DNA of 45,104 nt. Origin: a virus. Positions 4,606 through 33,685 of this stretch are shown one piece after another. Location of the stretch: the IMG/VR virus record IMGVR_UViG_3300028025_003567, positions 1 through 45,104 of that record; one strand, written 5' to 3'. The number at the start of each line of letters is the position of its first letter. Position 1 is the stretch's first letter. Position numbers and translations under genes: made by a program. The notes under the pieces are model-generated. The model was not told where the DNA came from and ran no database searches. It saw only the letters and a program-made list of their open reading frames with translations.

Positions 4606-4621
4606 ATGTGTGTGTGTGTGT

Positions 4622-6927: not shown

Positions 6928-6938
6928 AATTACCTATC

Positions 6939-10317: not shown

Positions 10318-10320
10318 CCC

Positions 10321-11004: not shown

Positions 11005-11011
11005 GTGAACT

Positions 11012-11083: not shown

Positions 11084-11092
11084 CTCCACGCC

Positions 11093-11619: not shown

Positions 11620-11765
11620 AACAAAAGCGTAGACCAGAACTAATGAGGCCAGCCCTCAAACAACTCACGCCATACGAGAAGAAGATTGTATCCACACATG
11701 GAATTAAGGTTGCAGAAATGTGGAAAGAACTTTTCTCAAAAAACAAATGGGTTCTAATCAAATGA
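11616..11765 (+). CDS. Hypothetical small basic protein (49 aa)
   Basis: The ATG at 11616 overlaps the preceding stop, and the TGA at 11763-11765 overlaps the ATG of the metallophosphoesterase (ATGA at both ends). The product begins MKQKRRPELMRPALKQLTPY and is short, basic and helical. No family is recognised. The coupling at both ends is the main evidence. Confidence 0.55.
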   Translation: MKQKRRPELMRPALKQLTPYEKKIVSTHGIKVAEMWKELFSKNKWVLIK

Positions 11766-12502
11766 GTAAGCGTCAAAAATTCATCGCTGTGGGAGACAAC
11801 CATGGTGACATGGTAGACGAAGCAGTTGCTAAAGAGTTCTTTAAATTCTGCTCGGACTTTGACCCTCAACACCGCATTCATTTGGGAGACTGCTTCGATT
11901 TTCGGTCTATTAGGCGTGGTGCGTCTGGTAGAGAAGAAGATGAGTCTTTATTTTACGACATCAAGGCTGGCAAAGAATTCATTGAAAGATATGAGCCAAC
12001 CGCATTTCTTTATGGAAACCACGAAGACAGGCTCAGTCAAATCATCTCGTCCTCAACCAATGGCATGGTACTTGATTATGTATCAAGCATTGACAGCGAC
12101 ATACGCAACCATCTCAAGAAACATGGCTGTCGTAAAATCTACGACTACCACGCTCATGACGGTGTTCACACGCTTGGCCCAGTCAAGTTTGTCCATGGCT
12201 ACACATGTGGTCAAAACGCTGTCGAAGAGCATGCAAGGCATTACTGCGTCCCAGAAGGTGCTGTGGTCATGGGTCACCTCCATCGCATCGAGCAAGTCTG
12301 TGCCAAGCGGCACGGAGGGGCAGTCGGATTCTCTGGTGGATGTCTCTGCAAAAAAGGAGAAATGGAATACGCTAAAAATAGGCTCGCCACAAGCAAGTGG
12401 GGAAGCGGCTGGCTTTACGGATTTGTTGAAGGTCAAAATTGGAAAATCTGGCAAGCCCATAAGGTCGGTAAAAAGTTCATCTACTCTCACGCAGACCTAT
12501 GA
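11762..12502 (+). CDS. Calcineurin-like metallophosphoesterase (246 aa)
   Basis: The metal-binding motifs of this superfamily are all visible in order: GDNHGD (11-16), LGDCFD (41-46), YGNHEDR (84-90), VHGY (144-147) and GHLHR (171-175). Such phage enzymes hydrolyse phosphodiesters or phosphoesters, and the substrate here is unknown. It starts at the ATG at 11762, coupled to the gene before. A longer frame upstream from 11720 is ruled out because it would overlap the 49-aa gene. It probably acts in nucleic-acid processing, given its position in the replication operon. Confidence 0.9.
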   Translation: MSKRQKFIAVGDNHGDMVDEAVAKEFFKFCSDFDPQHRIHLGDCFDFRSIRRGASGREEDESLFYDIKAGKEFIERYEPTAFLYGNHEDRLSQIISSSTNGMVLDYVSSIDSDIRNHLKKHGCRKIYDYHAHDGVHTLGPVKFVHGYTCGQNAVEEHARHYCVPEGAVVMGHLHRIEQVCAKRHGGAVGFSGGCLCKKGEMEYAKNRLATSKWGSGWLYGFVEGQNWKIWQAHKVGKKFIYSHADL

Positions 12503-13930: not shown

Positions 13931-14229
13931 TAAAAGAGTTTACGCTTAATCCTTCCAATAACAAGTTCAAAAAGTTCTGGGGCAATAGCACCAGAAATAC
14001 TGTAAAGGACAGACTTAAGCATCGGGTCGATATCAACATTATAAAGTGCGAAGTAAACTAGCACCCCAGTGATTCCCCCAGCCGTAATAAATCTAATCCA
14101 GCCAACAAACGAATGCCTATCTTTTGAGAGCAACAGTCTAGCGAACATTCCAACCGCACCAAGCAGGGCTATAATCCAGCCACCCTTGTGCAGTTCATCC
14201 GCAATCTCTCTTAAAGACTTATCTTCCAC
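13930..14229 (-). CDS. Putative holin (99 aa)
   Basis: The protein has a short charged N-terminus, then three hydrophobic stretches (about 17-34, 44-63 and 70-90), and a basic C-terminus (GRIKRKLF). A GGWIIALLGAVGMFARLLLS segment resembles LydA/holin superfamily III proteins, recalled from memory. It would form holes in the inner membrane to trigger lysis. It overlaps the end of the 3656-aa gene by 11 bases and is followed by the lipoprotein, a typical lysis cluster position at the end of the late operon. Confidence 0.7.
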   Translation of the reverse strand: MEDKSLREIADELHKGGWIIALLGAVGMFARLLLSKDRHSFVGWIRFITAGGITGVLVYFALYNVDIDPMLKSVLYSISGAIAPELFELVIGRIKRKLF

Positions 14230-17200
14230 TGTGTTTAAAGATGGATGACACCGCCTCCTGTTCGCTCTTTTCCTTTGAAATCATGATGCCATTAGGACTA
14301 AAGACAACAAAGTCGCTTGTCCACCTGTTTCTGGCATCGATAGCCTGTTGTCTTAGGATTACAAATCCCTCACTGTTTTGTACAGCAGTCCAGTCTTGGA
14401 AGGCTGGCTTAGGGCTATCACCGACCATGATATTACCTTCCTTGACAACACTCCAAGTGGTCTTGGCATCCACCCTGTCAGAGTGAGGCACGGTAGGGGG
14501 AGGGCCGCTGGTAACGCCCTTCGTAGAGCCAGTGTCCAGTTGCTGGGCCACGGAGGGTCTCTTTTGCTCTGCAAGAGCCTTGCTGGTATCAAGGAGTTGC
14601 TGTCTTGCCTCAACCACTTCGTCTCTGAGTTTCCAAGAGCCATTGACCTTCTCGTAGTCACCGTTGTGCAGTCTATCCCAGACATCAGTGTTGGGGTAAA
14701 TGGTAATCTGCCTCTTGTTGTTTCCAGTCTGGATGTAGGTGGTCTCGGAGTACTGTCCAATCTTAACCAGTTCAGCGGTGAGTGCTTCAATGACCTGCGG
14801 AGGCAGGGAGCCACCGTGAACATCAAAGAAGTTCTTGCTGTAAGAACCAAGTTGCTTGGCGGGAAGAACAGGCTGACCAGCCATAGATGTTGCCAGAACC
14901 TGTGCAGAGCGTAGGTCATCGGCAAAGAATCTAATGCCAATCTGGATTCGCTCAAGGTCTGGAGCAGTCATCACATGGGAAGGGGGAACCTTAACTCCAG
15001 CGTCATCACCAGTGAAGAACAGTTTAAACATGTCTCCGTGCTTGAACGCAACAAACTTTCCGTTGGGGGTTCTGAAGAACGCATCGCTAGGGTCTGGGTT
15101 CACAATCTCTGGCATGCCAAAGTCGTTGTACTTAAGTTGGGTGCTTACAGGCTCTGGGTTAGCAGAGATAAGTTTAAGGTCATCATTAAGTGCCAACAGG
15201 TTAGCCTTAGCGTCTGGCCTAGAGTTGAGGAACTGCTCCACTCTTCCTTTGTAAATCTTAACGGCAGACTCGGTCTTAGCCAGTTCAAGGAGAACCTGCT
15301 GGGTAGCGGTAATCTTGTCACGGCCCTGCTGAGTAAGTGCTTGCTCAATGCCAGTGTACCAAGCCTCGGCACTATCCATAGAGGCATCGGAGTGTGCTTG
15401 GGTCTTATTCTCAATGGCAATGTTGTCACCAGTCTTATCAATTTGCTCAACGATACCCCTTGCGTTTCTAGACTTGAAGTCTCCTTCAAGGCCAAGCCAA
15501 GTCTTAGTCTTCATGTTGGCATCCTGCCCACTGAAGATACTGCTAATCTCGCCAGCCTCATTGCTGAACAATGACAGCATGTAGCCAATGTATTGAGGGT
15601 TAGATACAAGTTCGGAGACGCTGGTGTACTTTGCGATGCCAGTCTTGATTTGAGGAATCGTGTGAAGGATGTAGTCTGCCTCTTCAATCTTAAGTTTGGA
15701 CCAATCCATCTTACCATCAACTAGGTTCTCTGGTCTGGTAAGTTCGGCAAGCCTTGCTTCTCCGCTGACTCTTGCAATGGCAAGGTACATCTTGGGCTGG
15801 TCATTCATGGCCTGTTTAACCCAGTGGTTGTAAAGCGTGTTAACTTTCTGGACTTCCAGATTTACATCAGAGTCTGGAGAGATGGTCTTAAGAGAATTCT
15901 CGTACTCGGCTCTCCAAGTATCCTTGACTGGCACATGGTTAGGACCGTCTGGGTTAATGATGTCGGGGAAGTAAAGGCTCACTAACTTCAAGTCTTCAGC
16001 GTCAATGCCAACAGGCTGACCAGTTCTCTTATACTCAGACTGAAGTCTGTTAGCATATGAAAGAGCCTTATCGAACAGGTCGATTTCTCTTAGGCCACGG
16101 AGTGCACGAATCTGTCCTTCGATAGCCTCTCCGTCAGAGACATTTTTAAGGACGCTGTCAACGGAGATTTGACCACCGATGATGTTGCCCTGTCTTTCAG
16201 AGTATTTCTGGTCGAACTGGTAGGTGCTTTGTTCTCCAGACTGCCACTGAATGGGTCTCTTGCCTCCCTCTGCGTTCTCCATCTTGACTCTGACTCCAGT
16301 GGATTCACTGGTAGCCTTGGTACGCTGATAGCCAGCACGAACTTCATCACGAGTCGGATAGAATTCACTCCAAAGAGTCGGGAAGATTGCTTGATACTTG
16401 TGGTCCGCAGGGAACACACGCATCGGGTCAGAGGTAATTCCCATCTCTTGGAACTTCTTCAACGAAGTCTCAAGTCTCAAGTCGAGTTCCTTTTGTTTTA
16501 CGGTAGCCTCTCTAATGTATTCGGCAGTCTCCGCACGGATGCGAGTTCTGGTAGCATCAAGCATTTCGTGGTGATGTCTAAGGAAGTCTTCGTATTGAAC
16601 ACGGAGCGGCTCTGGCAACTTCGCATAAGAATCAACAAGGGTGTCGCTGTTAATCTTGTGGACGATGTCGTATTTGCCTTGGGCTTCAGCAAACAACTTT
16701 TCAAGCATTGCATCTCTCTTGACAGGGTCTGCTTCTTGTAGGGCAAGTTTCTTCTCAAGATTAGCCTTGCTAAGTCTGTGAGCCAACTCATCAGCCATGA
16801 ACTTATTAACCTTCAGTTTGAAGTCGGTTCCTTCTGGGCTTTTGTCCCAAGCCATGATGCCACCAGAGTTCTGTTTAACATTTAGGTTAGCATCACCAAT
16901 GATGTCACGCCTAGTCGCTTCATTATCTGCGATGTCAAACACGCTATCGTCATGAAGGTAGTCGTTAAGGTTAACTCTGTTAGGGTTAGACTCATCAATC
17001 GTAGCCTTATGCAGACCAATCATGTCAGCCATAGCATGCTTAAATCTCTGGTGCATCTTATGCGGACTGAGGTAAGACTCTCCCTCAAGCGGGATGAATC
17101 TCGGCATGGTATAGAAGTCCTGCCTAGGCTCCACATTCATAGACACCTTTGCTTCGTACTCGGACAGGGCTACATCAGTTTCTGGGGCTGGCTTCTTGTC

Positions 17201-20200
17201 CCTAGCCAGTTCCATCTTGTAAGTCTCCCACTCAACCTCAGACATCTGCTTCACGATAGAACGCTTCTTGCCAATTCTTACCTTGGCTAGTGCACTTCTC
17301 TGGTTCACCTTGCCGCCCTGTGCGGCATGCAACTGAAGTTCAAGGTCTTCGATTTCCTTAACCAGTTGCTGGTAAGTCTCTCCCTTAATCTTGTCTTGAA
17401 TGTCCATTAGGACTTCCTGCTTACCAAGAGGAAGCATCGTCTCATCGCTGGCTCTCTTGGCCTCAGAAAGTGCATGCTCAATTAGAGCCGCCATGTCTCC
17501 CTGCGAGATAGCACCCTGTTCAGCAGGGGCATACTCGTCTGGGATTCTCAACTTGTTGTGGACCTGTCTGCTGTCGGTCATGAACTGTTCATGTGCCTTC
17601 AGTTCATCGATGTTAGCAAACACGCCATCTTTGATAAGACGCTTTGCGACTTCTGGTCTAAGCAGGTATCCTCTTCTAGAAAGGAACAGCAAATGACTGT
17701 CTCTTCTGTCGCTCAACTGCTCAAGAGGGCCGTCAAGTTCGGTGATAGCCTTTTCAAGTTGAGCAAAATCCTTGATGTTTCTTTCCTTAAGTTTCTGAAT
17801 AACTTCAGCCTGTATCTGTCTCTGCTGTTCGACTTTAGCCTTAATCAACTTCGGATTGTTAATCAAAACATTGGCAATCTTCTTTCTTTCTTCGACAAAC
17901 TTAGGCTTAATGACTTCAGAAAACTGCTTGGTCAGCCTATCGGCAACAGACCTAGCCGCCTCAAAGGAGGCAGTCTGAGGGTCGCTCATAGTTCCAACCC
18001 ACTTATTCAGTGCCTCAACGGTGGTAAGTCTATCAACTCTTTCGATGCCAGTGAAGTTTCCAGAGTCATCAAAGATAATCTTATACACATCTCCAATCGC
18101 TTTTGAAGAAAAATTACCGCTGGCTTCTTCGGCTTGTTTAAGAACATCAGAGGTTTTAGCCTTAGTCCCCTTCTTGGTTCTAGCAACGCTACTGATAAGG
18201 GCGTTCTTGCTATCAGAAGTAACCAACAGCATGTCTCCAGATTTAAAGACGGCTAGGTTTTTCCATTCTGGCATGATATCGCCAGCCTTAATCGTCCTTC
18301 TCTCGTCAATCATCTCAAGGTTCTGACCAAGGCCAGACGGCTTGTCTGGGTCATAGTCTGGATTAGGAACCTTCTTCTTAACGATTCTTTGAGCGTTAGG
18401 ATTCTCGTATTCAATCTCAGTTTCGTGAGTGATTAGTCTAAGGATTGATTCAGCCTGTTCATCACTGACACGCTTAAGGCTTTGGAACACGACATCAGCC
18501 GCATTGTTTTCATTCAAATCGATGATGGCGGCTCTCTTCGCTTCTTCAAGAGAAGGGAACTTCTTGTCCATAATCTTCCAGCCGTTAGCACGATGAGCGG
18601 TATACTCACCCTTCTTGTATCCGTAGGTAAGTCTGGCGATGGTCTTCATGCCATCGTATTCAAGCAACATCTCGTCAAAGTTTCTGTAAGCCTTAGACTT
18701 GGACTCTCCGCTGAGGGTGGTATCCTTATTCCAATGGTAGTGCTTAACGCCATTGATTTCAACAACCTCAATCTCACGGAAAGGAACAACACGCAGTCCT
18801 TCTTCAGCAGAGGGGAAAACAGTTCTTCCTCCTTCGGTCTGCCAAGGGGCATCAGAACCCTTTTCGGTTAAAATTGCTACGGTGGGTCTGCCTTCGTGGG
18901 TAAGGATTTGTGCATTGTTAGTATAGGTCTGCACCTTCTTCTCACCTCTGGCAAAGTCTCTAATACGCTTTGCGTTTCTTCCGTTGCGGACCTCGTCAAT
19001 ACCGTCCCAGCCTTCCCATCCCTTCTTGGAGAATGCAATGTCAGCAATCTGCTGGGGGCTTGCTTCCTTAAGATGGGCTTCAACATCCGTGTGGCTTTCC
19101 GAACCATCGCCAACATCGTTCTTAGTGACGGTTGCAATGAGTTCCTTTCTGAGTGCTTCAATGGAGTCGGCTAGACCAACATCACTGACATACTTGTCTC
19201 CAGACTTTCTTCCAGTAACTTGGACGCTAGTCTTTTCAAACTTCATCGATTCGGGAAGTTTAAGTTTCTTAAAGTTGAGACCAATGTCGGGCTGTTCTGG
19301 CTTGTACTGCTGTACATAATGACCAGAGGTTCCTAGGCTAGAGCGAATAACATCTCCGCTTCTGGTCCATCTTCCAAGATTGTCCTGCTTGTTGAACTCA
19401 AGTTCATCGCTCCATCTAAGGGAGTGCAGACCGTGTCTAAGAATCTCAGCCGCAGACTTTCTAAGATTGGTGTTGGTCAACTCATAGGTCTGAGTGAACT
19501 GTTGACGCATCTGGTCAAGTCTAGCCTTGAATTCTGGGGTGGCCTTTCCTTCAATTTCAAACTGTTTGGCAAGTGCCTGTGTCAGCATAATCAAACGCTG
19601 AGTAGGGCTTCTATGTCCATCTCCAGCCGCAGATTCGGTCATGGTCTGATAGGCCGCATCAAGAAGAGTGAAGTTTTCCTTTACGCTTCTTCCAGACTTT
19701 CTGCCTTCGGGGATGTCAGTAACACCCATAGCCCTACCCTGCTCTGCCGTAATGTCTTCATAGGTAGAGGGAATCGGGTTGCCCTTGCTGTCTCTTTCCC
19801 ATCTAGACCTCATCTCAACACGCTCAGTGCTCGGAACCGTTCCAAGCAAATTGTCTGCAATGTCAAACATCTTATAAGCAGACAGGGAAGTGATAAGTTC
19901 TTCCTCCAACTTCTTAAGTTCTTCTTCGTACTGTCTGGCCTTAGCGTCTCTGAATGCTTCGGTGGCTTCAAACGCTTGCTTTCTGCTGGCAGATGCCTTT
20001 CGCAGTGCACTTCTTCTGACCCAATGGTCCATCAAGACGGCATCAACCATTTCAATGTGACGCTTTTCAATGTCGGCAGGGAGTTCCTTGTATTCCTTAT
20101 ATCGTGCATACTCTCCGTTGCTCAGAGATGCAATGACTGCAAGGCTAGGTCTACCAGCACGAACCAAATCAATGCTGGAATCTCTAAACACGCTTCTCAT

Positions 20201-23200
20201 TACAGTAGCGTTGGCCTCGGCCTCGTCCAACTGTTCAAGGGATACTCTAAGTTGTCTCTGGGCCTTCATTTGTTCCTCTTCGGGCTTACCCTTTCTCTTC
20301 TCACGCTCTGCTCTCTGCAACTTACGCATCAACGCATCCTTACGCTGTTGAATGCTGGCTCTGTTCTTGTTGATTGAAGCCATTTCAATACGAATATTCT
20401 TGGCCTCTTGGTCAATCTGTTGCTGGTAGGTAAGTTTCTTCTTCTGTCTCGGTGCAAAGTTGCCGCTAATCGTGTCCAGAAGACTGATGCCAGTCTGCTT
20501 AAAGTCTTGGAAGTCGGTAAACGCAACGCTCACTTCTCCTTCGTGTTGGAACTTGATGGCTCTGAATCCGTTATTATGTAAATCCTTTTTGTCAAATCTT
20601 GAGAGGTAGTCGTGGGGCACATTGCCGTGACCAGTGATGTCAAGAATCTCTTCTGGTCTTACGCTCAAATAGCCAACCGTGTGTTCATTGAATCTGCTAA
20701 CAGTAGACGCTTCACTGAAGTGACTGATGTGGAAGTCTCCAATCTTTCTGGAGGCATACATACGCATCGGCTCACCAGTGGGAGTCTTAAACGCAGACTC
20801 CTCCATGTGAATGGAATCAGAAACGGAAACTTGGTAACCGTGGTGGTCACGCTGGTGACGCTGGACTGGCTGGAAGCCACCCTTCGGGGCAACCATCTTA
20901 GCAAGGATAGCCATGCTACCGTTCTTGGCAATATGGTCTGCGGCATCAGATTGGGTAACAACCTCCCAAGACGGCTTGTCGTATGTGCCAACATTGCCAA
21001 AGACATTCTGCTGACCAAATCTCTTGATACGCTGTGCGACAGGTTCGGCATCCTTATTGATTACGCCAGAAAGAAGGAACTCAACGCCTCTTCTTCTAAG
21101 GTGCTCAAGACCTTCAGCGTACAAAACATTTCCAAGTCCAAGGCTTTGGTATGCTGGCTCAATTCCAGTCTCGTTAATGTAAGCCATTCTCTGCATTTCC
21201 AAGATATCCTTGGGAAGTCCGTACCTCTTTAGGTAAGTGTCATGAATCGCTCTATCAAGCGACATGATTTGAGAATTAAACTCTCCAACCTTTTCTGGCA
21301 TACCGCTGGTCAAGTCATGAATGTACCCATCCATGCTAATGATGTCTCCACCATGTCCCATGCCGCTTGAATGATTTGAGGTTCTGTTTTCAATTCTAAC
21401 CAGCATCAACTGAAGTGGGTCAACATTGTCTTGAAGCGGTTTACTGCTACCCCAGCCACGCTTCTGTGCGTAGGTTGGGCTTACGGATGGGTCGAATTTT
21501 CTCGTAATAATGCCTTGACTCTTTTTGTCAGCCCAAGCCGCACTTACAGGTTCTTCATATCTAAGTCTAATTCTTCCGTTAAGAGGTCTTCTAGTAAAAC
21601 TGGTGGGAATCATTGCCTGTCTAGGAGCATAGTTGCCCTGTGCCTTAGCATGGGCATAATCATGGTCATAGAAGAAACCTTCACCCTGTAGGTGGTTGAT
21701 TCTGCCACTGATTCTATCAAGTCTAAGAGAGGTCCACGGAGTGAACGCCTCGTTCATATGTGCGTTTCTAAGTTGAGCATGCAGTGGGTAATGGAAACCT
21801 TGGTCCTGCATGTAACTTTCACTGAAGCCATCCTTGGGCGGGTGAGCACCAATAGCCGCATTAATAATGTCACGCTTTGCTCTTCCAATCTTGCCGCCAC
21901 CAAAGAAGTCCGCACCAGCCATAGCAACCTCGCCTCTGCTGTAGTTGCTCAAGAGACGCTTAATGTCAAAGTGCATCTCGGCTTCGCTTGCGTACACAGA
22001 CTTGACATATCCAGAGCCGACAGACCTAGCGGCATCCATAGGTCTCATGTGGTTGAACATGTAGTTCACTCGTCTGTCGATGGCGTAGTAATCAATACCG
22101 TTAACCATCAACTGAGGGTTACCAACCTTGTACATGACATCCGTGTCTTCAAGGTCCATCTGCTCCTTCTCAAGAAGGGTAAGTCTCTTTCTCTCAAACT
22201 TAAGAACGACCTCATAGGGAAGGATATGGCGTTCCTTTTCAGTGCCTTCATAGCGAGTGTTGTCTTCGCCAGTAGGTCTTCCCTTGGTGTCGAAGTTAAA
22301 CTTCTGCCTCTTGTCGCTTGAGTAAACAAACTGCATGATGTTGTTACCATCAATCCCCTTGGAGTGAATAGTTCTGGTAAGGGCAAACACCCTGTTCGCA
22401 ATCGTAGAGCCGAACACATCGGTGAACAAAGTCTTCTCCGCTTCAGTCATGTAGCCGCTAATCTTGAACTGCTTCTTGCCTTCAAACTGAGACTCGTGAG
22501 CCGCATACTCAAGGTCTGCTTCGTCAAATTCAGTTCCCTTCTTCTGCTGTTTTTCAAGAACCTTAGCCTTACGCTTCTCAGCGGCCTCAAGTTCTCTCTG
22601 ATTCTTTTCGTACTCAGCAGTATTTTCTGCAATCAGTTTCTTGGTGGCCTTAAGGTTGGGTCTTCTATTTGCTGGCATGTACGCACCAGCAGGAGACTGC
22701 TCCGTCTCTCCACCAATCTCTGTAAATCTAAGCCCCTTGTTGGCGGGGTCCATCTTTGCGTGTCTAGCAAAGAACGAAGTGAACTTGCCTTCCTGCTCTG
22801 CGTTGTATTCGGCATCGGTCTTTCTAACCATCTTGCCAGTGCCGTCATCCTTATAGAGGTGGTCGAGTTCCTTAAAGGTAATCTCGTTGCCAGTAAGTTC
22901 TGCCGACTTTCTTGCAGGGAAGCCCCTAACAGTATCGGTGTCCTTTCGCATCTTATCCACAACCATCTTCATTACTCTGTCAAGTTCTGGGATGATTACA
23001 CGCCTTCCTTTAGAGTCCAAGAAGAACCCTTCTGGATTGCCAGCCTTGAACTGAATTCTGCCACCAGCGGCTTCAACATCGTGCTTCATCAGTCTGTGGA
23101 CAGTATCAAGTCCAGAGTTCCAAACGATGTCTGCAAAGTTGTTTAGAGGGCTGTCACCACGGAGGAGGTAGTCAATAGGCTTATCCTTAATGTATTTTCC

Positions 23201-25189
23201 GAAGTAAGACTCCGCAAGTTCTTCAAAGATTGGGTAAAGGGTAGACGGCTTCTTGCCCTGTTTGACTTCATCAATGGCTTCGTTGAACTGCTTAAGGTTG
23301 GCTCGCTGTGCTCCATCGTTAGGCGAGGTATCGTCCAACTCCATGTACGCATCTCTAAACTTTTCAAGAAGGGCAACTCGCTTTTCTTGCGGCATCTTCC
23401 AGAGGAAGCCGTCATGGTCTTCGGTTCCAAGCAGACCCTTGGTAACATGCTCTCTAAGAAGGGAGCCGTATCTGTCATTAAGGAGTGCATTGTGGAACAG
23501 TTCGCCAGAGATAGCGGACGGAGCCGCATGGTCTGCGTTGATAATAGTAAATACTCTTCCGTCCTTTCGTCTGGTAGTGTAGCCACCAAACTGCGGATTG
23601 CTAAGTTCCTTCTGGTACTCCTGCCAATCGGCATCACCAAGCAGGTCACGAATCTTATCAGTAGTAAGGATGAGGTGAGTACCGTTCTTTTGTAGTCTTT
23701 CAGTGGCGGCAATGCCAGCCATCACCTTATACATGGCCTCGTCTCCGTGCTGTTCCTTTACATTCTTAAGCAAAACTTCAACGCCTTCCTTCTTGGGAGC
23801 ATCAAATCCTTCTGCGACATAAGCGAAGTGCTTCATCACATTATCAATCTGCTTCTTGCTTCTGTTTCCATAGATACCGTAAACAGACCCAAGCATGTGC
23901 ATAGAGCCACCAAGGCCGATACCAGTACCGATGCCATGATACAAGCCCTCTTCACCACCAAGGGCATAACCAAATCCAGCACCATAAAGAGAGCCGTGGA
24001 AAGACGCTTGAGCCATTCGACCAAGATAATCGGTAAACCCACTGGAGAAGTTAGCCATCTTGCCAATCGTTCTAACGCCAGCATCAGAGGATTGATAGGC
24101 AAGGCGTTCAGCGATGCTAAGATAATGAGGAGTTCTTGCGTGAGCAATGGCTTCAGCCATGGTTCTAGCACCAACCTCGGTAACCTTTGCAGTAGCCCAA
24201 AGGCCAGCCGCAGGTGCAACATAAGGCATATGAAGAAGAGCAGTGCCAAATAACGCACCCTGTGCCGTTCTCAGAATCTGTTCCTTGGGGACAATCTTTC
24301 CGTTAGAAGTCGTAATATTCTCAATGCCAAAAAGGTTTTCAATCTTGTTACCGACATAGTTATAAACACCTTCACCGACTCCAGCGGTCTTAGCCGCACC
24401 CTTCTCAAGAGAGAGAGCCATCTTTTCGGCTTGGATTGAACCCTTAGCCATTGCGTTTCCTAGGTGTTCGCCTAACTCAATAGCCATAGCGGTCTTTCCA
24501 AGTGCTCTGGCAACAGCACCGCCAATCTTCATAGGAGGGAAAATAACGGTAGGGTCAAGGACCATGCTACCGCCAGCAACGCCAGCCTTATTGAAACCCT
24601 TCAACTTAACGCCACCGACATCAAACTCACGAGGGATAAATCTACCCTCTGCGGCAACCGTAGCCATTTCACGATTGAACTGTGAGAGTTTAAGGTAATC
24701 TTGATACTGCTCTTCTGGGGTTCCAGTAGTAAACAGTGCTCTATGAATAGGGCTTGCGGGGTCATACTTGATAACATCAAGCATGTTAAGGAAGTACTGA
24801 GTTCCAGTATAAGCCGCCTCAATGGTAGTGCCAGCCAGCGTATGAGGCTTGGCAATGTCTCCAGTCTTAACCATGTCCCAAGCACCACCAAGCATAGTAC
24901 CAGCGGCATGCCCAATTGCATCAGTAATCGTAGCAAAAGCACCCTGCTGGTTCTTCTTTCTCCACTCAAGGTACTTAGGGTAATTCTGTGGAGACGCAAC
25001 ATATCCTTGGCCTCCGTAGTTACCAATCATGTAAGCCTCACGCTCACCAATCTTATCATCTTCCTCTACTTGGTTAAGGGGAGCCTCGTTAGTCGTAGCA
25101 ACTGGCTTCTGAAGTGCATCAAGAAACTTAAAGTCATTCTGAATCCTCTCCGCATTGGTAGAGTCAGAAAAGTGTAATTGGTTAGCCAT
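14219..25189 (-). CDS. Giant polyvalent virion protein (3656 aa)
   Basis: One uninterrupted 3656-codon frame starts at the ATG at 25189, three bases after the previous stop. Recognisable pieces are glycine/alanine-rich hydrophobic stretches at about 200-440 that could insert in membranes, and a degenerate zincin-like SGELFH (561-566). A GNAT acetyltransferase-like region spans about 1262-1400 (AYQSLGLGNVLYAEG; then VINKD). An ADP-ribosyltransferase-like polyvalent domain spans about 1465-1565 (GEPMRMYASRK replaces the usual GEPLVVYHGT). Coiled-coil regions lie at about 850-900 and 1590-1660. The set fits a large polyvalent protein packaged in the capsid and ejected with the DNA. Arginines are mostly AGA. 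Confidence 0.85.
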   Translation of the reverse strand: MANQLHFSDSTNAERIQNDFKFLDALQKPVATTNEAPLNQVEEDDKIGEREAYMIGNYGGQGYVASPQNYPKYLEWRKKNQQGAFATITDAIGHAAGTMLGGAWDMVKTGDIAKPHTLAGTTIEAAYTGTQYFLNMLDVIKYDPASPIHRALFTTGTPEEQYQDYLKLSQFNREMATVAAEGRFIPREFDVGGVKLKGFNKAGVAGGSMVLDPTVIFPPMKIGGAVARALGKTAMAIELGEHLGNAMAKGSIQAEKMALSLEKGAAKTAGVGEGVYNYVGNKIENLFGIENITTSNGKIVPKEQILRTAQGALFGTALLHMPYVAPAAGLWATAKVTEVGARTMAEAIAHARTPHYLSIAERLAYQSSDAGVRTIGKMANFSSGFTDYLGRMAQASFHGSLYGAGFGYALGGEEGLYHGIGTGIGLGGSMHMLGSVYGIYGNRSKKQIDNVMKHFAYVAEGFDAPKKEGVEVLLKNVKEQHGDEAMYKVMAGIAATERLQKNGTHLILTTDKIRDLLGDADWQEYQKELSNPQFGGYTTRRKDGRVFTIINADHAAPSAISGELFHNALLNDRYGSLLREHVTKGLLGTEDHDGFLWKMPQEKRVALLEKFRDAYMELDDTSPNDGAQRANLKQFNEAIDEVKQGKKPSTLYPIFEELAESYFGKYIKDKPIDYLLRGDSPLNNFADIVWNSGLDTVHRLMKHDVEAAGGRIQFKAGNPEGFFLDSKGRRVIIPELDRVMKMVVDKMRKDTDTVRGFPARKSAELTGNEITFKELDHLYKDDGTGKMVRKTDAEYNAEQEGKFTSFFARHAKMDPANKGLRFTEIGGETEQSPAGAYMPANRRPNLKATKKLIAENTAEYEKNQRELEAAEKRKAKVLEKQQKKGTEFDEADLEYAAHESQFEGKKQFKISGYMTEAEKTLFTDVFGSTIANRVFALTRTIHSKGIDGNNIMQFVYSSDKRQKFNFDTKGRPTGEDNTRYEGTEKERHILPYEVVLKFERKRLTLLEKEQMDLEDTDVMYKVGNPQLMVNGIDYYAIDRRVNYMFNHMRPMDAARSVGSGYVKSVYASEAEMHFDIKRLLSNYSRGEVAMAGADFFGGGKIGRAKRDIINAAIGAHPPKDGFSESYMQDQGFHYPLHAQLRNAHMNEAFTPWTSLRLDRISGRINHLQGEGFFYDHDYAHAKAQGNYAPRQAMIPTSFTRRPLNGRIRLRYEEPVSAAWADKKSQGIITRKFDPSVSPTYAQKRGWGSSKPLQDNVDPLQLMLVRIENRTSNHSSGMGHGGDIISMDGYIHDLTSGMPEKVGEFNSQIMSLDRAIHDTYLKRYGLPKDILEMQRMAYINETGIEPAYQSLGLGNVLYAEGLEHLRRRGVEFLLSGVINKDAEPVAQRIKRFGQQNVFGNVGTYDKPSWEVVTQSDAADHIAKNGSMAILAKMVAPKGGFQPVQRHQRDHHGYQVSVSDSIHMEESAFKTPTGEPMRMYASRKIGDFHISHFSEASTVSRFNEHTVGYLSVRPEEILDITGHGNVPHDYLSRFDKKDLHNNGFRAIKFQHEGEVSVAFTDFQDFKQTGISLLDTISGNFAPRQKKKLTYQQQIDQEAKNIRIEMASINKNRASIQQRKDALMRKLQRAEREKRKGKPEEEQMKAQRQLRVSLEQLDEAEANATVMRSVFRDSSIDLVRAGRPSLAVIASLSNGEYARYKEYKELPADIEKRHIEMVDAVLMDHWVRRSALRKASASRKQAFEATEAFRDAKARQYEEELKKLEEELITSLSAYKMFDIADNLLGTVPSTERVEMRSRWERDSKGNPIPSTYEDITAEQGRAMGVTDIPEGRKSGRSVKENFTLLDAAYQTMTESAAGDGHRSPTQRLIMLTQALAKQFEIEGKATPEFKARLDQMRQQFTQTYELTNTNLRKSAAEILRHGLHSLRWSDELEFNKQDNLGRWTRSGDVIRSSLGTSGHYVQQYKPEQPDIGLNFKKLKLPESMKFEKTSVQVTGRKSGDKYVSDVGLADSIEALRKELIATVTKNDVGDGSESHTDVEAHLKEASPQQIADIAFSKKGWEGWDGIDEVRNGRNAKRIRDFARGEKKVQTYTNNAQILTHEGRPTVAILTEKGSDAPWQTEGGRTVFPSAEEGLRVVPFREIEVVEINGVKHYHWNKDTTLSGESKSKAYRNFDEMLLEYDGMKTIARLTYGYKKGEYTAHRANGWKIMDKKFPSLEEAKRAAIIDLNENNAADVVFQSLKRVSDEQAESILRLITHETEIEYENPNAQRIVKKKVPNPDYDPDKPSGLGQNLEMIDERRTIKAGDIMPEWKNLAVFKSGDMLLVTSDSKNALISSVARTKKGTKAKTSDVLKQAEEASGNFSSKAIGDVYKIIFDDSGNFTGIERVDRLTTVEALNKWVGTMSDPQTASFEAARSVADRLTKQFSEVIKPKFVEERKKIANVLINNPKLIKAKVEQQRQIQAEVIQKLKERNIKDFAQLEKAITELDGPLEQLSDRRDSHLLFLSRRGYLLRPEVAKRLIKDGVFANIDELKAHEQFMTDSRQVHNKLRIPDEYAPAEQGAISQGDMAALIEHALSEAKRASDETMLPLGKQEVLMDIQDKIKGETYQQLVKEIEDLELQLHAAQGGKVNQRSALAKVRIGKKRSIVKQMSEVEWETYKMELARDKKPAPETDVALSEYEAKVSMNVEPRQDFYTMPRFIPLEGESYLSPHKMHQRFKHAMADMIGLHKATIDESNPNRVNLNDYLHDDSVFDIADNEATRRDIIGDANLNVKQNSGGIMAWDKSPEGTDFKLKVNKFMADELAHRLSKANLEKKLALQEADPVKRDAMLEKLFAEAQGKYDIVHKINSDTLVDSYAKLPEPLRVQYEDFLRHHHEMLDATRTRIRAETAEYIREATVKQKELDLRLETSLKKFQEMGITSDPMRVFPADHKYQAIFPTLWSEFYPTRDEVRAGYQRTKATSESTGVRVKMENAEGGKRPIQWQSGEQSTYQFDQKYSERQGNIIGGQISVDSVLKNVSDGEAIEGQIRALRGLREIDLFDKALSYANRLQSEYKRTGQPVGIDAEDLKLVSLYFPDIINPDGPNHVPVKDTWRAEYENSLKTISPDSDVNLEVQKVNTLYNHWVKQAMNDQPKMYLAIARVSGEARLAELTRPENLVDGKMDWSKLKIEEADYILHTIPQIKTGIAKYTSVSELVSNPQYIGYMLSLFSNEAGEISSIFSGQDANMKTKTWLGLEGDFKSRNARGIVEQIDKTGDNIAIENKTQAHSDASMDSAEAWYTGIEQALTQQGRDKITATQQVLLELAKTESAVKIYKGRVEQFLNSRPDAKANLLALNDDLKLISANPEPVSTQLKYNDFGMPEIVNPDPSDAFFRTPNGKFVAFKHGDMFKLFFTGDDAGVKVPPSHVMTAPDLERIQIGIRFFADDLRSAQVLATSMAGQPVLPAKQLGSYSKNFFDVHGGSLPPQVIEALTAELVKIGQYSETTYIQTGNNKRQITIYPNTDVWDRLHNGDYEKVNGSWKLRDEVVEARQQLLDTSKALAEQKRPSVAQQLDTGSTKGVTSGPPPTVPHSDRVDAKTTWSVVKEGNIMVGDSPKPAFQDWTAVQNSEGFVILRQQAIDARNRWTSDFVVFSPNGIMISKEKSEQEAVSSIFKHSGR
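20495..20797 (-). other. Degenerate ART-like domain inside the giant protein
   Basis: Residues about 1465-1565 read SAFKTPTGEPMRMYASRK, then IGDFHISHF, a YLSVRPEEILDI strand, and NGFRAIKFQ followed by EVSVAFTDFQDF. The order and spacing match ADP-ribosyltransferase domains found in phage polyvalent proteins (GEP-x-x-x-YHGT, later YDGI and a VVF strand). The catalytic-site HGT is replaced by ASR, so activity is doubtful. Fold recognition is from memory. Confidence 0.5.
20990..21406 (-). other. GNAT acetyltransferase-like region inside the giant protein
   Basis: Residues about 1262-1400 include a beta-strand segment (VGEFNSQIMSLD), then INETGIEPAYQSLGLGNVLY, a GNAT motif A of the form P-x-Y-Q-x-x-GLG-x-x-LY, an amphipathic helix, and GVEFLLSGVINKDAEPVAQR. 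This is the acetyl-CoA-binding core pattern. Acetyltransferase domains are known in large polyvalent phage proteins. Target and activity are unknown. Confidence 0.55.
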
Positions 25190-28106: not shown

Positions 28107-28916
28107 TTAGAATTTGATAATGTAGTTTAGGGCCACATTTCTGGGGCGGGTTTCAGTGCCAACCTTTGCGGTATTGGTATCATGCATAGCATTACCAGAA
28201 AGAGGGGCAGAACCTAATCCATACCACTCAGAGTCGCACCAGTAATTGAGGTAGTCAGTGCCATAGCCGTTGTTGGCATAAGAACGACAATCAGAGTTGG
28301 GCGTAGTGTGCTTGTGTGCTTCAAGTTGCATGTCCTGCTTAGAAGCAAATACACGACCACTATCAACAGCCACAGCAGGAGTACCTTCAGTTCTGCCGTT
28401 AGACCAACCTCGGATGAACTCACCACGGAGGTCGGGAACCTTAAAGTCAGCCTTGCCAGTGCCACCAAAAGTAAGACCAATAAGGGTCCAAAGCGTTTCG
28501 TACTGAGTATTGGTTATGGCATTCAGAGACTGACCATCGCAAATAACCCAACCAACAGGAGGGCTGAGAGCAATGTAAGCAAGAACGCTACCGACAGGAG
28601 TAAGACTATCTCCATTAATGGGCTTTCCAGAGACACTGAGCGTATCAGTCGTAATAGAGTTTGCATCGAGGGTATTAGTTACAATGTCAGTTGCATTGAT
28701 AGTCTTAGTAAACTGGCCCTTAGTTTGCTGGAAAATGTCTCCACCCTTAGTAATGATGATTCTGTCGGTGTCGGCAGTAATCGAGTTAGTGTCCTGCTCA
28801 TCAATAGCCCCAGCCAAAAGTTGGGCATTATTGACATGTGCGTTAAGGTTTTCAGCCGTAACTTCAGATTTAACACCACTTGGTTCGTATGTCCAGCCGC
28901 TAGAAATTTGTGCCAT
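28107..28916 (-). CDS. Tail fibre protein with phage tail-collar domain (269 aa)
   Basis: Residues about 107-170 match the phage tail collar domain: PVGSVLAYIALSPPVGWVIC, DGQSL, then YETLWTLIGLTFGGTG and FKVPDLRGEFIRGW. The C-terminus (TRPRNVALNYIIKF) is the usual ending. The N-terminal 100 residues are a repetitive Thr/Asn/Ser-rich shaft (NSITADTD, DANSITTDTL). It is likely a short tail fibre or tip that contacts the host surface. It lies between the tail nozzle gene and the ejection-protein genes. Confidence 0.88.
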   Translation of the reverse strand: MAQISSGWTYEPSGVKSEVTAENLNAHVNNAQLLAGAIDEQDTNSITADTDRIIITKGGDIFQQTKGQFTKTINATDIVTNTLDANSITTDTLSVSGKPINGDSLTPVGSVLAYIALSPPVGWVICDGQSLNAITNTQYETLWTLIGLTFGGTGKADFKVPDLRGEFIRGWSNGRTEGTPAVAVDSGRVFASKQDMQLEAHKHTTPNSDCRSYANNGYGTDYLNYWCDSEWYGLGSAPLSGNAMHDTNTAKVGTETRPRNVALNYIIKF

Positions 28917-28918: not shown

Positions 28919-30799
28919 TTATTTTTCGCTTCTTAGGTCTCTACCTTCGGCTGTAGCCTCGGTAACGATGGAGTAAACACTTGGTCTTCCTTGAAGAGAA
29001 GTCAATTCATATTCAATAGCAGTTCCTTTTTTTCGAATCGGAAACGCTCTCGTAAGTTCCTCTCCATTAGAGGCCGTAGAGATATCAGCCAAGTATGTGG
29101 TGTCTGGGTTAATGGTGTTTGCGGTAACCTTAATTGCACCGTCTAGGCCATAATTAGCGTAGAATTCGCAGGAAACAAAGCGTTTCTGCTGAAGCGTACC
29201 AAAGTCCATTTGTCTGGTTTTGGCGTACATTTGAATATTGGAAAAGTCAAATTCGTACTCGTTAAGGTAAAAAGTTACCCACTGAGGCAGTTTCTTGGCT
29301 CCGCTGGTCTTACCAAACTGGTCAACATCTAGTTCTTCTGCAAGGAATAGACCATTCTTGTTGTCAAGGAAGAACAGTTTCTTTTGGCTACCAAATCTGG
29401 CTACCAAAATATTGTCAATGTGGAAGCCAATAGGGTAAGTATCTACGGACTCCCAACTCCTATTGTTAAGATTATAAACGAATACGCTAATTCTGCTTAC
29501 GCCATCAAGGACAATCGGAACAGACAGGTAGTATCTGCCAGCAAAGATTTGGCCTACCGCCTTGTAAGAGTTGTTTACATCAATAAGGTCAACATACTTC
29601 TGGATGTTCTTGGAAAGCGGGAAGGTATTGGCAATCAGTTGGACATCAATCTGAGGCTCCAGAGCAAATACACCAGAGCCAGACAGAAAGAACACGGAGC
29701 CAGAGACATTACCCATCGAACGCTTGGCTACGCAACCCATGTCGGTAGTCAGAGCCTTAATGGTAGTATCCTTGAGGACAATCTCTGGAGAGGTGGTATT
29801 GTCAGAAATGACGGCCTCGTAGATGCTGTTAGTCTTAAGGACTAGAACCTTGTTGCCGCTCCACGGATAAAAGCCAACAATCTCTTGGTCATCGCCAGTA
29901 TTGATTTGGAAGGCTTGAATGCTAAGGTCAAATTCCCAGTCTCCGTCATCGTTCGGAAGATAGTAAGAAACCGCAATCTCATCTCGGCTGTACTTAAGAT
30001 ACAGTCGGTTCTTGAAATAAATACCGTTTGAGGAAGGAGGGAAGTCGCAGTGCTGGGAGTTGCCATTGATGCTTCCATCAATTCTGCCCTGTCGGGTGAC
30101 AGCAACAGATGTGCCATTAAAGACAAGGGGAGGTCTACCTTTGCAGACAAGGATTGGGTGGCTTGCAAGATTATTAGAGTTAAAGTTGCTGGTAACTCTG
30201 AACTCATTGTTAGAGGTGACGGTCTTTACAATGAAAGTGCCACTCATCTCTGGGTGCTCAGACTCAAGAATTACCTCGTCTCCTACGACCAACTGGTGAC
30301 CTAGGTTAGTGGTAACCACAATATCATATGCACCGTTGCCCATGTTCACATGGGTAGAGTTTCCTTCCTTAAAGAACTCAGATTCACCCCGCAAAATATA
30401 GATATTATTGACTGCCTGTAGAACCTGCGTCTTTCCAGCAACAGCCTTTCTTCCAGTCGGGAACAGGTACTTAGAACTCAGCGGGGAGGCCGAATTCATG
30501 TTGTACAGGTACAGGCCGTCTTCAAGGACTAGCACCATTTCTTCAGTGCCATCCTTTCTTACTCTAACGCCAGACGCAATAATCTCAGCACCAGCCGTTG
30601 GAAGGACGATGCTCTTGATTGTGTCCGAAAAAAACTGCTTTAGTCCTTTTCTTGTTTCCAGTGACTGTAGTTCAAGACGAATGTTTCTGCCGTCTTGTAG
30701 CATACCCTCTTTAAGAGCCGTACCGTTGCTACGAGTATCGATAGACAGAAACTGAAAATCGCCTTGCTTTTTTCTGACACTGTTAGAAGAATCTGCCAT
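28919..30799 (-). CDS. Tail tubular/nozzle protein, gp12-like (626 aa)
   Basis: The protein has many short beta-strand repeats such as SIVLPTAGAEIIASGVRVRK and QAVNNIYILRGESEF. It opens with residues typical of tail tubular protein B relatives (QFLSIDTRSNGTALKEGM, then RNIRLELQSLETRKGLK). In T7-like phages this protein forms the nozzle under the adaptor ring, with beta-propeller and fibre-dock parts. It lies immediately before the tail-collar fibre gene, as expected. Function is assigned by composition, length and neighbours. Confidence 0.75.
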   Translation of the reverse strand: MADSSNSVRKKQGDFQFLSIDTRSNGTALKEGMLQDGRNIRLELQSLETRKGLKQFFSDTIKSIVLPTAGAEIIASGVRVRKDGTEEMVLVLEDGLYLYNMNSASPLSSKYLFPTGRKAVAGKTQVLQAVNNIYILRGESEFFKEGNSTHVNMGNGAYDIVVTTNLGHQLVVGDEVILESEHPEMSGTFIVKTVTSNNEFRVTSNFNSNNLASHPILVCKGRPPLVFNGTSVAVTRQGRIDGSINGNSQHCDFPPSSNGIYFKNRLYLKYSRDEIAVSYYLPNDDGDWEFDLSIQAFQINTGDDQEIVGFYPWSGNKVLVLKTNSIYEAVISDNTTSPEIVLKDTTIKALTTDMGCVAKRSMGNVSGSVFFLSGSGVFALEPQIDVQLIANTFPLSKNIQKYVDLIDVNNSYKAVGQIFAGRYYLSVPIVLDGVSRISVFVYNLNNRSWESVDTYPIGFHIDNILVARFGSQKKLFFLDNKNGLFLAEELDVDQFGKTSGAKKLPQWVTFYLNEYEFDFSNIQMYAKTRQMDFGTLQQKRFVSCEFYANYGLDGAIKVTANTINPDTTYLADISTASNGEELTRAFPIRKKGTAIEYELTSLQGRPSVYSIVTEATAEGRDLRSEK

Positions 30800-30805: not shown

Positions 30806-31012
30806 TTAGACAGCAGGTTCGGTCCAAGTGAGACCAAGGTCGGTAAACGACTTAATCAGTTCTTCCTTGGTAGGCTTGTTAATAAGGGTAAGGACAGAGT
30901 TAGCCTTACCACCGTGAGGAAATTCACGCATGACATAGACCTTCTTTTCAACAGGATTGTATAGGGCGTTCCAGCCCTTCGGGATATCGAATTCTTTCTT
31001 TTGGTTAAGCAT
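30806..31012 (-). CDS. Hypothetical small tail-module protein (68 aa)
   Basis: It starts at the ATG at 31012 (MLNQKKEFDIPKGWNALYN), just after the stop of the cysteine-repeat gene, and ends six bases before the nozzle gene. The product is basic with a compact alpha/beta pattern (KKVYVMREFPHGGKANSVL). It is unrecognised. Its placement between two tail genes suggests a small accessory or chaperone-like role, without direct evidence. Confidence 0.68.
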   Translation of the reverse strand: MLNQKKEFDIPKGWNALYNPVEKKVYVMREFPHGGKANSVLTLINKPTKEELIKSFTDLGLTWTEPAV

Positions 31013-31014: not shown

Positions 31015-32634
31015 TTAGAATGTAATTGTAGTGGTAATGTAGCCGCCTCCGTTTTGGTATTCGACACGAGTCTTTACATTCGCATCTCCATTAAACCATT
31101 CGTTGGTTTCAAACAGTAAGTAGCCATCGTTAAATTTGTCAAGGAAGGAAGTTGTGCCGTTTTGGGTAGCCCCAGAGCCAGACATAATCCAAAGCGGAAC
31201 ATCAAGACCAACCTGTACGCTTCCGTTGTAGGAGCCTCCACCATCGGTAACAGTCCAGTCAAGCATGCGAATACCGCCAAGATAGGGGGTAAGCATAACC
31301 GTACCATCCGAAACATAGTTAGTGCCACCTTCCCAAAGGGAACCGCCCATTCCGTCTGCAATTTCGTTGCTCCAACTCGTTCCAATGGAAATGTTGGTGC
31401 TTGCGGTCTGGAATGAACCATTCATGTCAAATCCGTCAAAACTGATATCCTGCGTTACATCAGAAGAGGAGGAAGACAGAATAGTTCCAGCGGATGGATA
31501 GTCGGGAGGAGGAGGGTCACCGCAATTGTCGTTTACGCTGTAACTTCCGTATTGGCTATAGGTAACCGTACAGCAACCGTTATCGTAAATCATGGCTCCA
31601 TTGTCAGCATTCCAAGAGCCATCATTTACCCAGTAAGTACTACAGGCTCCGTCATGATACTCAGTAGAGGTCTCATAGGAATAAGTAAATGAGCCAGAGT
31701 TTCCACAGCCATCCCAGTTAAGAGTCTGAGGGTTTGCACTTTGAGTATTGCCAGTAGGCGTACCAGAAGAGGTGCATCCACCACAGTTGTCATTTACATT
31801 GTAAGAACCAAAATCAGAATAGGTAACAGTGCAACAGCCATTATCGTAAATCATGTCACCGTTCATGGCAGTCCAACTGCTTTCAAAACTCCAGTAGGTA
31901 TTGCACATGCCGTCAGCATACTCTCTTTCAACGGTGTAAGCGTAAGTGTAATTTCCGCTATTTGAACAGCCGCTCCAAGAAAGGTTTTGTTCGTTTACAA
32001 TTCTAGTGTTAGAGGTAGCACCAGCATCTGGGCAAGGCGGGTTACAGTTGTCGCTTACAGTGTAGTAAGGATAGTTGTAAGAGTCGTAGTAAACATAACA
32101 GCAACCATTGTAACTGTAAATCTGAGTGCCATTGTCGGCAGTGTAAGAGCCAGTAAGTAGCCAGTAAGTACCACAATAGCCATCATGATACTCAGTTTCA
32201 ATGTCGTAAGCGTAATCAAAATACCCAGAAGTACCGCAACCATCCCAGTAAATATTTGAAACATTAACGGCTCTAGTTTGACCAGTTTCAGTGTCAACCT
32301 GTCCGCACGGATTGCAGTTGTCGTTCACATAGTAATTGCTACCATCCCAAATGACTTGACAACAGCCAGTGTCGTAAAGAACGCTTCCAGAAGGAAGACT
32401 CCAAGTCCCATTAAGTTGGGAATACTCTCCGCAATTTCCGTCAGTGTAGTAAGCGTATGTAGCAGTAGAAGTCTGATTCCATCCGTAGTTACCGCAACCC
32501 CACCAATTAACACCACCTTGTGAAGTGTAGTCTCTCAGCCAAATATCGGGAGGAGGGCAAGGAAACAAAACAGACCCCAAGCCATTTCCAACAGAAATGA
32601 CAAAACCGTTATTTCTGAAGGCTTTGTTAAGCAT
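31015..32634 (-). CDS. Cysteine-repeat tail protein (539 aa)
   Basis: Four tandem units fill residues 26-371. Each has six cysteines in the pattern C-x(20-22)-C-x20-C-x(22-23)-CC-x(14-17)-C, for 24 cysteines in all, and there are none elsewhere. Recurring signatures are W-x-GC, DG-x-C, NGCC and NDNC, with Tyr/Asn/Gly/Ser-rich connecting strands. The C-terminal 168 residues are cysteine-free and beta-rich. The even number suggests three disulfides per unit in the virion. It lies between the adaptor and nozzle genes, so a surface-exposed tail or receptor-binding protein is likely. I know of no matching family. Confidence 0.85.
   Translation of the reverse strand: MLNKAFRNNGFVISVGNGLGSVLFPCPPPDIWLRDYTSQGGVNWWGCGNYGWNQTSTATYAYYTDGNCGEYSQLNGTWSLPSGSVLYDTGCCQVIWDGSNYYVNDNCNPCGQVDTETGQTRAVNVSNIYWDGCGTSGYFDYAYDIETEYHDGYCGTYWLLTGSYTADNGTQIYSYNGCCYVYYDSYNYPYYTVSDNCNPPCPDAGATSNTRIVNEQNLSWSGCSNSGNYTYAYTVEREYADGMCNTYWSFESSWTAMNGDMIYDNGCCTVTYSDFGSYNVNDNCGGCTSSGTPTGNTQSANPQTLNWDGCGNSGSFTYSYETSTEYHDGACSTYWVNDGSWNADNGAMIYDNGCCTVTYSQYGSYSVNDNCGDPPPPDYPSAGTILSSSSSDVTQDISFDGFDMNGSFQTASTNISIGTSWSNEIADGMGGSLWEGGTNYVSDGTVMLTPYLGGIRMLDWTVTDGGGSYNGSVQVGLDVPLWIMSGSGATQNGTTSFLDKFNDGYLLFETNEWFNGDANVKTRVEYQNGGGYITTTITF
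31522..32559 (-). repeat. Four tandem six-cysteine protein repeats
   Basis: Repeat spans run from the first cysteine of each unit: residues 26-107, 110-197, 201-284 and 287-371. The second-to-third cysteine distance is exactly 21 in every unit, and the unit length is 82-88 residues. The last two units are closest to each other, sharing MIYDNGCCTVTYS, which suggests recent duplication. Confidence 0.85.
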
Positions 32635-32930
32635 TAAGCCGTAGCGTAGGCAACATGAGCAACCACAGAACCATCAGACTTCAGTCTGACAATACCGTTA
32701 TAGTTGTCAAGGGACACATTGGACTTAATCGGGATAAGGAGACCTTCAGTAGAGGTTTCATTGAGGGCCACATAAAGGGCCGTGGTGTCGCTCTTGTTCT
32801 GAATTACGACCACCACTCTACGCTGGGGAGCGATAGCGGCAGGAAGGGCAGTGGTCCAAGAACCACCAATGGTGATATCATCGTGGATAAACTGCCTAAG
32901 AAACGGAGAGGAAAATTTGATGTTAGACAT
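32634..32930 (-). CDS. Hypothetical beta-rich virion protein (98 aa)
   Basis: The ATG at 32930 is coupled to the adaptor gene stop (TAATG), and its own stop is coupled to the cysteine-repeat gene. The product is beta-rich (RRVVVVIQNKSDTTALYVAL), which looks like a small beta-sandwich. It could be a decoration or tail accessory protein. No family is claimed. Confidence 0.7.
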   Translation of the reverse strand: MSNIKFSSPFLRQFIHDDITIGGSWTTALPAAIAPQRRVVVVIQNKSDTTALYVALNETSTEGLLIPIKSNVSLDNYNGIVRLKSDGSVVAHVAYATA

Positions 32931-33685
32931 TAGGAATATGGGTTAATGAAATTGATTCTACGAATTTGGCCCTGCTGTCGAGCAATCTTATCGATTTCGT
33001 CTCCAAGGAACGCTTGGGCTTCAGATTCGGCAATTCGTGCAGAATCAATCTGGCCCTCGGAACGAAGATAGTCAGCGTACACCGCTCTGCTAATATAGGC
33101 GGCAAAGATGTAAGGAATCTTAACAATCTCCCATTCATCGGTGTGTTGAGAACAGGGCTTGTTTACATTGTTTACCTTACAGTTGTAAAAGTTGCCATTG
33201 TAGGGCTTGCCCTTGGCTGGCTTAAAAACGCCAGAGAGAGAGCCAGAATCAAAGTAGGTCTGTGAGCCAACCTTAAATTCAATAGGCTGGTCCCAAGCAT
33301 CACCAAACAGTTCTGGCACTTTCTTACGATACTCGACCCAAACAGTGCCTTCTTTAGGGCTGGTTAGGTAAACATTATCGTCATTTAGTAAATAGGTAAT
33401 CTGGGAGTTCCTCGTAGTGTTAAGAGGATTCAGCGACCAGATAGCAATAACCTCCCCGCAATCAGCAGGAAGGACAAAGTAAGGAGTTTCTTTAGCGTCC
33501 TTTAGGACAGTAATCTCACTAAACTTCATGACTTGGGGAAACACATCGTACTCCCAAGCCGTCTTCAGACGCATGTTTGCAAGGTCACGAATCTGGGAAA
33601 ATGTTGCGGCATTAATTTCGTCTCTGTCGAGGCCGCAAAGTTGAATTGAATCAAAGAGGATTCTAGAAAAGTCTACGGTTCTCAT
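32930..33685 (-). CDS. Tail tubular protein A-like adaptor (251 aa)
   Basis: The N-terminus (MRTVDFSRILFDSIQLCGLD, then AATFSQIRDLANMRL) has the helical pattern of gp11-type adaptor proteins that sit between portal and tail. A beta-sandwich middle and a helical C-terminus (AAYISRAVYADYLRSEGQ) follow. It starts at the ATG at 33685 and overlaps the preceding gene by four bases. It would join the head and tail of a short-tailed virion. The assignment rests on this pattern and gene order. Confidence 0.75.
   Translation of the reverse strand: MRTVDFSRILFDSIQLCGLDRDEINAATFSQIRDLANMRLKTAWEYDVFPQVMKFSEITVLKDAKETPYFVLPADCGEVIAIWSLNPLNTTRNSQITYLLNDDNVYLTSPKEGTVWVEYRKKVPELFGDAWDQPIEFKVGSQTYFDSGSLSGVFKPAKGKPYNGNFYNCKVNNVNKPCSQHTDEWEIVKIPYIFAAYISRAVYADYLRSEGQIDSARIAESEAQAFLGDEIDKIARQQGQIRRINFINPYS

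Follow-up and report, generated by a model that had tools for sequence, protein, structure and literature searches.

An undescribed six-cysteine repeat in a putative, exchangeable tail adhesin of an uncultivated phage

The window analysed here, all 45,104 nt of IMG/VR virus record IMGVR_UViG_3300028025_003567 (positions 1 to 45,104), encodes a 539-aa tail protein (31015–32634, minus strand) built around a repeat that is real, undescribed and probably reinforced by cysteines, and that sits in a swappable, probably adhesin-encoding slot. The gene is an ORF with an ATG start and has orthologues in loci L001, L006, L007/L008 and L087. Cysteine accounts for 4.5% of the protein, compared with 0–2.5% in 15 neighbouring proteins, and all 24 cysteines lie within four homologous units of about 87 residues. 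The six-cysteine unit belongs to no described family and has no close fold in PDB.

Four six-cysteine units and a fifth, cysteine-free copy

The cysteines occupy positions 26, 47, 68, 91, 92 and 107 in unit 1; 110, 133, 154, 178, 179 and 197 in unit 2; 201, 223, 244, 267, 268 and 284 in unit 3; and 287, 310, 331, 354, 355 and 371 in unit 4 (C1 to C6 in each). The first cysteine codon is at 32557–32559 and the last at 31522–31524. The ORF thus bears out what the original prediction had read from the sequence: 24 cysteines in four units between 31522 and 32559, with a spacing of 21 residues between C2 and C3 and an adjacent Cys-Cys pair in all four units. Its signatures held for W-x-GC (WWGC, WDGC, WSGC and WDGC in units 1–4) and DG-x-C (DGNC, DGYC, DGMC and DGAC). 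The NGCC signature is found in units 2–4, with TGCC in unit 1, and NDNC in units 1, 3 and 4, with SDNC in unit 2.

All four units lie on the minus strand and are recognised by a common profile. Unit 1 (residues 26–109; 32308–32559) scored 111.5 bits with the unit HMM, unit 2 (residues 110–200; 32035–32307) 127.0 bits and unit 4 (residues 287–374; 31513–31776) 133.4 bits; unit 3 (residues 201–286; 31777–32034) was delimited with the same HMM. Leave-one-out profiles recovered each held-out unit at 45–112 bits, whereas 1000 shuffles per unit never exceeded 11.3 bits; for unit 1 the values were 44.6 bits and at most 9.8 bits. Pairwise identity among the four units is 31–60%. Between units, synonymous sites are near saturation and amino-acid changes are fewer, which points to repeats that are old and have been maintained by selection.

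The count of four stands for the six-cysteine units, but a further copy of the domain that carries no cysteine had been missed. It spans residues ~381–476 (31207–31494, minus strand; the end is approximate), and DGMGG replaces the DG-x-C motif. The unit HMM extends weakly to residues ~381–444, with 6.6 bits in the window and 10.0 bits in L001. In a profile–profile alignment, the units matched the C-terminal domains from five relatives with a score of 41, compared with at most 16 for column shuffles; because such shuffles preserve composition, composition alone cannot account for the scores obtained in this way. The protein ends with a segment of residues ~477–539 (31018–31206, minus strand), which closes with VKTRVEYQ[NS]GGGYITTTITF in all relatives in the alignment. 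At the other end, residues 1–25 (32560–32634, minus strand) are near-invariant across the window, L001, L006 and L007, and probably serve as the virion anchor.

Searches with the whole protein found no Pfam family at E≤1, and no EGF-like or other small disulfide-rich domain among them, and no PHROG match beyond chance level. PDB gave a sequence match to tail fibre protein S (8ju3), which at E 0.24 we attribute to chance. A tblastn search of 50,697 phage records gave no match, although its low-complexity filter may hide some. We also modelled unit 3 with AlphaFold2 on a 23-row alignment of single units. The model is compact and all-beta, with a mean pLDDT of 89.2 and six strands (5–22, 25–40, 46–53, 61–64, 68–73 and 77–82), as expected if the repeat is a folded unit. 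With this model as a query, Foldseek returned nothing meaningful from PDB (best E 1.0), and the convincing matches in BFVD were solely uncharacterised phage proteins. The best fold matches, A0A6J5MSM5 and A0A6J5NUZ5, come from uncultured Caudovirales phage; the former matched the unit at E 5e-4, and the two matched the full-length model at E 7e-12 and 4e-7. Because the full-length model has low confidence (mean pLDDT 53.5), these latter values serve as support alone. Both proteins are uncharacterised or named just for a collagen repeat, and their full-length TM-scores are low. An experimental structure of the unit would therefore add a new domain.

Variation among relatives and a link to cysteine-poor repeats

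Among viral contigs we found the six-cysteine unit only in a small clade, consisting of L001, L006, L007, L008, L087 and a fragment, L005. Searching with a DNA pattern of the unit added no viral contig to this list; the 57 matches that the pattern had in genome contigs lacked a matching ORF and were put down to chance; a profile scan of the genome contigs found no six-cysteine unit. A profile of mixed units proved too degenerate for scanning the collection. Within the clade the number of units varies, as the original prediction had suggested it might: L007 and L008 have three (18 Cys), the window and L001 four, and L006 five (32 Cys), while the L087 gene, its start cut off, has at least four. 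Cysteine totals are even throughout the 18 (L007/L008), 24 (window) and 32 (L006). In L006 (12512–14482), the linker between units 2 and 3 (residues 199–226) holds an extra cysteine pair (201 and 218) within a Trp/Asp-rich insert.

All six cysteines are kept in 18 of 19 units from five contigs, even though most of these units are just 30–60% identical. The exception is unit 4 of L087, where C1 and C3 are both absent and C2, C4, C5 and C6 are kept. The order of the units is conserved in part: in the window, unit 1 is 67–68% identical to unit 1 of L006 and L007, unit 2 is 85% identical to unit 2 of L007, and unit 4 is 71% identical to unit 5 of L006.

The absence of a described family had been part of the original prediction, and it survived the searches described above; the repeat is not, however, an isolated novelty, since cysteine-poor repeats occur in relatives and a cysteine-free copy occurs at the C-terminus of the protein itself. 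Scanning with the capsid protein provided 80 loci from the wider group of phages, in which we defined the slot as the gene starting ~1440 bases past the capsid gene, after three genes whose products are a protein of ~121 aa, an adaptor-like protein and one of ~98 aa. In many of these loci (L018, L023, L033, L039, L050, L069, L075 and L077) the slot protein consists of Gly/Tyr-rich repeats with DGxGGYY motifs and follows the capsid, adaptor and ~98-aa genes, as in the window. Like the six-cysteine unit, these repeats match no Pfam family. They differ in having mostly 0–3 cysteines, a spacing of ~50–60 residues and another N-terminus.

The connection between the two kinds of repeat passes through tail-fibre proteins from another phage group (L088, L162, L163 and L165). 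Each has one unit of the family near its C-terminus (profile probability 99.8%), followed by cysteine-free DGxGG repeats, and the PF12789 phage tail repeat was above its cut-off in all three that were scanned (L088, L163 and L165). The L088 unit is 48% identical to the query unit, but only C2 and C5 are clearly kept, C3, C4 and C6 being replaced, and there is one unit per protein. A cysteine near the C1 position persists in three of the four (L162, L163 and L165). These proteins also have a preceding DGxGG domain with a cysteine pair of its own (SSSC ... NQNGCWYP), and three of the four have an extra cysteine after it.

Profile scores were 166 for the units against the L088 group, 54 for the L088 group against the slot repeats (shuffles, at most 20) and 31 for the units against the slot repeats directly (shuffles, at most 17), with shuffle maxima of 16–20 overall. 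An ordinary fibre-type slot family gave no signal in the same comparison. For the full-length protein, the direct profile match to the cysteine-poor slot repeats was not significant, so at that level the link depends on the intermediates. Judged by these profiles, the six-cysteine unit is homologous to the cysteine-poor slot repeats and is a cysteine-rich form of a Gly/Tyr 'DGxGG' tail repeat, itself an undescribed family defined here. The result is an apparent natural series of versions of one tail bead, the first cysteine-free, the next with a single bridge and the last with three, and the phages that carry them allow gene-by-gene comparison. Such a series lets one ask how and why a protein from the reducing cytoplasm gains many disulfides, and whether added bridges improve the stability of the free particle.

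Proposed pairing and role of the cysteines

Partial cysteine loss, combined with the predicted strand order, suggests pairing of C1 with C3, C2 with C5 and C4 with C6 in the modelled unit. By this order, the long first hairpin has C1 at one end, C3 at the other and C2 at the tip, and the last hairpin would bring C4 and C6 opposite one another and C5 next to C4. Consistent with this arrangement, model positions 1 and 44, and likewise 67 and 84, are roughly opposite on their hairpins, their register being inferred. The joint loss of C1 and C3 in L087 and the retention of C2 and C5 in the L088 group fit disulfides, in line with the three bonds per unit originally proposed. Each pattern of loss probably represents a single event. 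The cysteine that L162, L163 and L165 keep near C1 without C3 weakens the C1–C3 assignment.

The original prediction had called such disulfides rare in tail proteins assembled in a reducing cytoplasm. Virions that assemble there do have precedents, which are documented in the tail of phage Milano, including its short tail fibre (PMC10811340), the capsid of 7-7-1 (PMC12796354) and the tail tube of T1 (PMC11945409); fibre–baseplate disulfides in Pam3 are cited in PMC10329688 and PMC11821841. The nearest analogue is gp31 of the Agrobacterium phage Milano, a slender fibre segment of small bead-like repeated domains in a disulfide-rich tail, with cysteine pairs 84–102 and 127–144 listed as disulfides (PMC10811340). 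As with the six-cysteine unit, the bead folds of gp31 are absent from PDB. In contrast, its beads are ~35–40 aa long with one cysteine pair each, Milano is a myophage, and the fibre is also tied to the baseplate by disulfides (PMC10811340). Homology to gp31 was rejected (hhalign probability 0.4%).

The bonds might instead be intermolecular, as in Milano, T1 and Pam3, with beads crosslinking neighbouring chains so that a fibre trimer is locked or the arm is fastened to other proteins of the tail. In Milano most disulfides are intersubunit bonds (PMC10811340), and disulfides between fibre and baseplate occur there and, as cited in PMC10329688, in Pam3. However, the pairwise loss of cysteines inside a unit and the placement of C1/C3 and C4/C6 on hairpins favour bonds within units, and the neighbouring tail proteins are cysteine-poor. 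We consider crosslinking unlikely. It is also quite unlikely that the cysteines hold a metal or an Fe-S cluster in place of disulfides. Phage lambda gpL has a tail-tip domain, likewise cysteine-dependent and at the tail surface, that binds a [4Fe-4S] cluster through four cysteines (PMC10721106); a reducing cytoplasm favours free thiols, and the C6-x2-3-C1' arrangement between units looks like a CxxC pair. Yet gpL has four cysteines at a spacing (173, 182, 205 and 212) that, compared by eye, does not match, hybrid units with C2 and C5 alone or without C1 and C3 would leave odd metal sites, and Pfam gave no Zn or Fe-S family match.

The window ORFs that were scanned yielded no redox family such as thioredoxin or glutaredoxin, and oxidation would therefore need host enzymes or be spontaneous. 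A periplasmic route was thought unlikely from the appearance of the N-terminus, judged by eye.

The slot and a putative role in host contact

The gene was originally placed between the adaptor and nozzle genes, which is right as to location, although on each side a small gene intervenes. Directly upstream is a 98-aa gene (32634–32930), preceded by the gene for a 251-aa adaptor-like protein (32930–33685), named from its position and lacking a family match. Directly downstream is a 68-aa gene (30806–31012) that is kept together with the cysteine-repeat gene, followed by genes for a 626-aa nozzle-like tail protein (28919–30799; synteny and weak PHROG matches, including tail appendage) and a 269-aa tail-collar fibre (28107–28916; PF07484, 2.7e-16; phrog_523, 8e-37). 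All are on the minus strand.

Compared with L001, identity is 100% for the proteins from the capsid through the 98-aa gene and 99% for the nozzle, but 91% for the cysteine-repeat protein and 94% for the tail collar. The gene for the tail-collar fibre is thus the other tail gene that changes fast: its identity to L001 is 93.7%, and to L006 and L087 45–48% over 170 residues. Most of the change in the cysteine-repeat protein is concentrated in unit 2 (70% amino-acid identity, dS 0.65), whereas the other units are 98–99% identical (dS 0.04–0.15). Unit 2 has therefore apparently been swapped with another sequence relative to L001; this could equally reflect recombination with an unsampled phage.

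In the readable relatives the slot keeps its position, ~1440 bp from the capsid gene; its proteins range from 135 to 657 aa. Some resemble ordinary fibres or fibritin-like proteins, and that of L016 resembles a laminin-G lectin below the cut-off. The median cysteine content of 35 slot proteins from outside the six-cysteine clade is 0.36%. Slot proteins are unrelated in L010–L014; two of these loci, L010 and L011, have capsid proteins 85–89% identical to that of the window, and their nozzle falls to 60%. The 98-aa protein, 81–95% identical in L006 and L007, drops to ~30% in L010 and L011, where the slot protein has been swapped, which makes it a candidate for the partner through which the slot protein is attached.

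Fixed placement in the tail module, swapping between close relatives and locally concentrated divergence are expected of a short-tail phage receptor-binding protein or tail fibre, a class of proteins that bind host receptors and are usually trimers, and thus the sequence comparisons fit a host-contact tail protein, with receptor binding itself a supposition. Curated tail-fibre families gave no match (none in Pfam; chance level only in PHROG). It is very unlikely that the protein merely fills a fixed structural place, as a spacer separating adaptor from nozzle, and takes no part in host contact: the gene does lie amid core tail genes and its C-terminal motif is conserved, but relatives with 85–89% identical capsid proteins have unrelated fibre-like proteins in the slot, and the gene outpaces its neighbours in divergence and changes its number of units.

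The reading that we favour, and hold to be rather probable as a whole, is that the protein is an interchangeable tail adhesin, either a side fibre or a receptor-binding appendage. The short N-terminal segment would attach it to the tail, and four all-beta beads of ~87 aa with a fifth, cysteine-free bead at the C-terminus would form a bead-on-string arm. Three disulfides would pin each of beads 1–4, most likely C1–C3 at the base of the long first hairpin, C2–C5 from its tip to strand 5, and C4–C6 across the last hairpin. The bonds would form mainly after lysis, in oxidising water (a timing that we infer), and leave the arm stable and protease-resistant. Gain, loss and exchange of beads would alter its reach and binding surface; changes in bead number and the exchange of single beads would offer a simple handle on adhesin reach and specificity. 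For the bonds in the sheath and baseplate of Milano, a redox-switch role has been a matter of speculation. By analogy, the unit might be a new disulfide-rich fold with such a switch, the arm being locked in oxidising water and its beads loosened by reduction at the host surface, exposing binding faces or triggering infection, but we regard this as highly improbable.

As part of the favoured reading, the source is best explained as a tailed phage, uncultivated, whose major capsid protein is of the SU10 type and whose gene order resembles that of short-tailed phages. A family scan of the ORFs identified the SU10-type major capsid protein and a terminase, and a scaffold-like protein is also encoded. 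A 3656-aa ORF without cysteine spans 14219–25189 on the minus strand; within the 1500-residue piece that was scanned, its Pfam matches are weak and probably due to chance. It is adjoined by a 681-aa ORF, also free of cysteine. Non-structural genes occupy 3071–12502 and include GP88 and DUF932 genes (3071–5781) as well as DUF3799 nuclease, HTH, IstB-like ATPase and ERF recombinase families (7360–11004).
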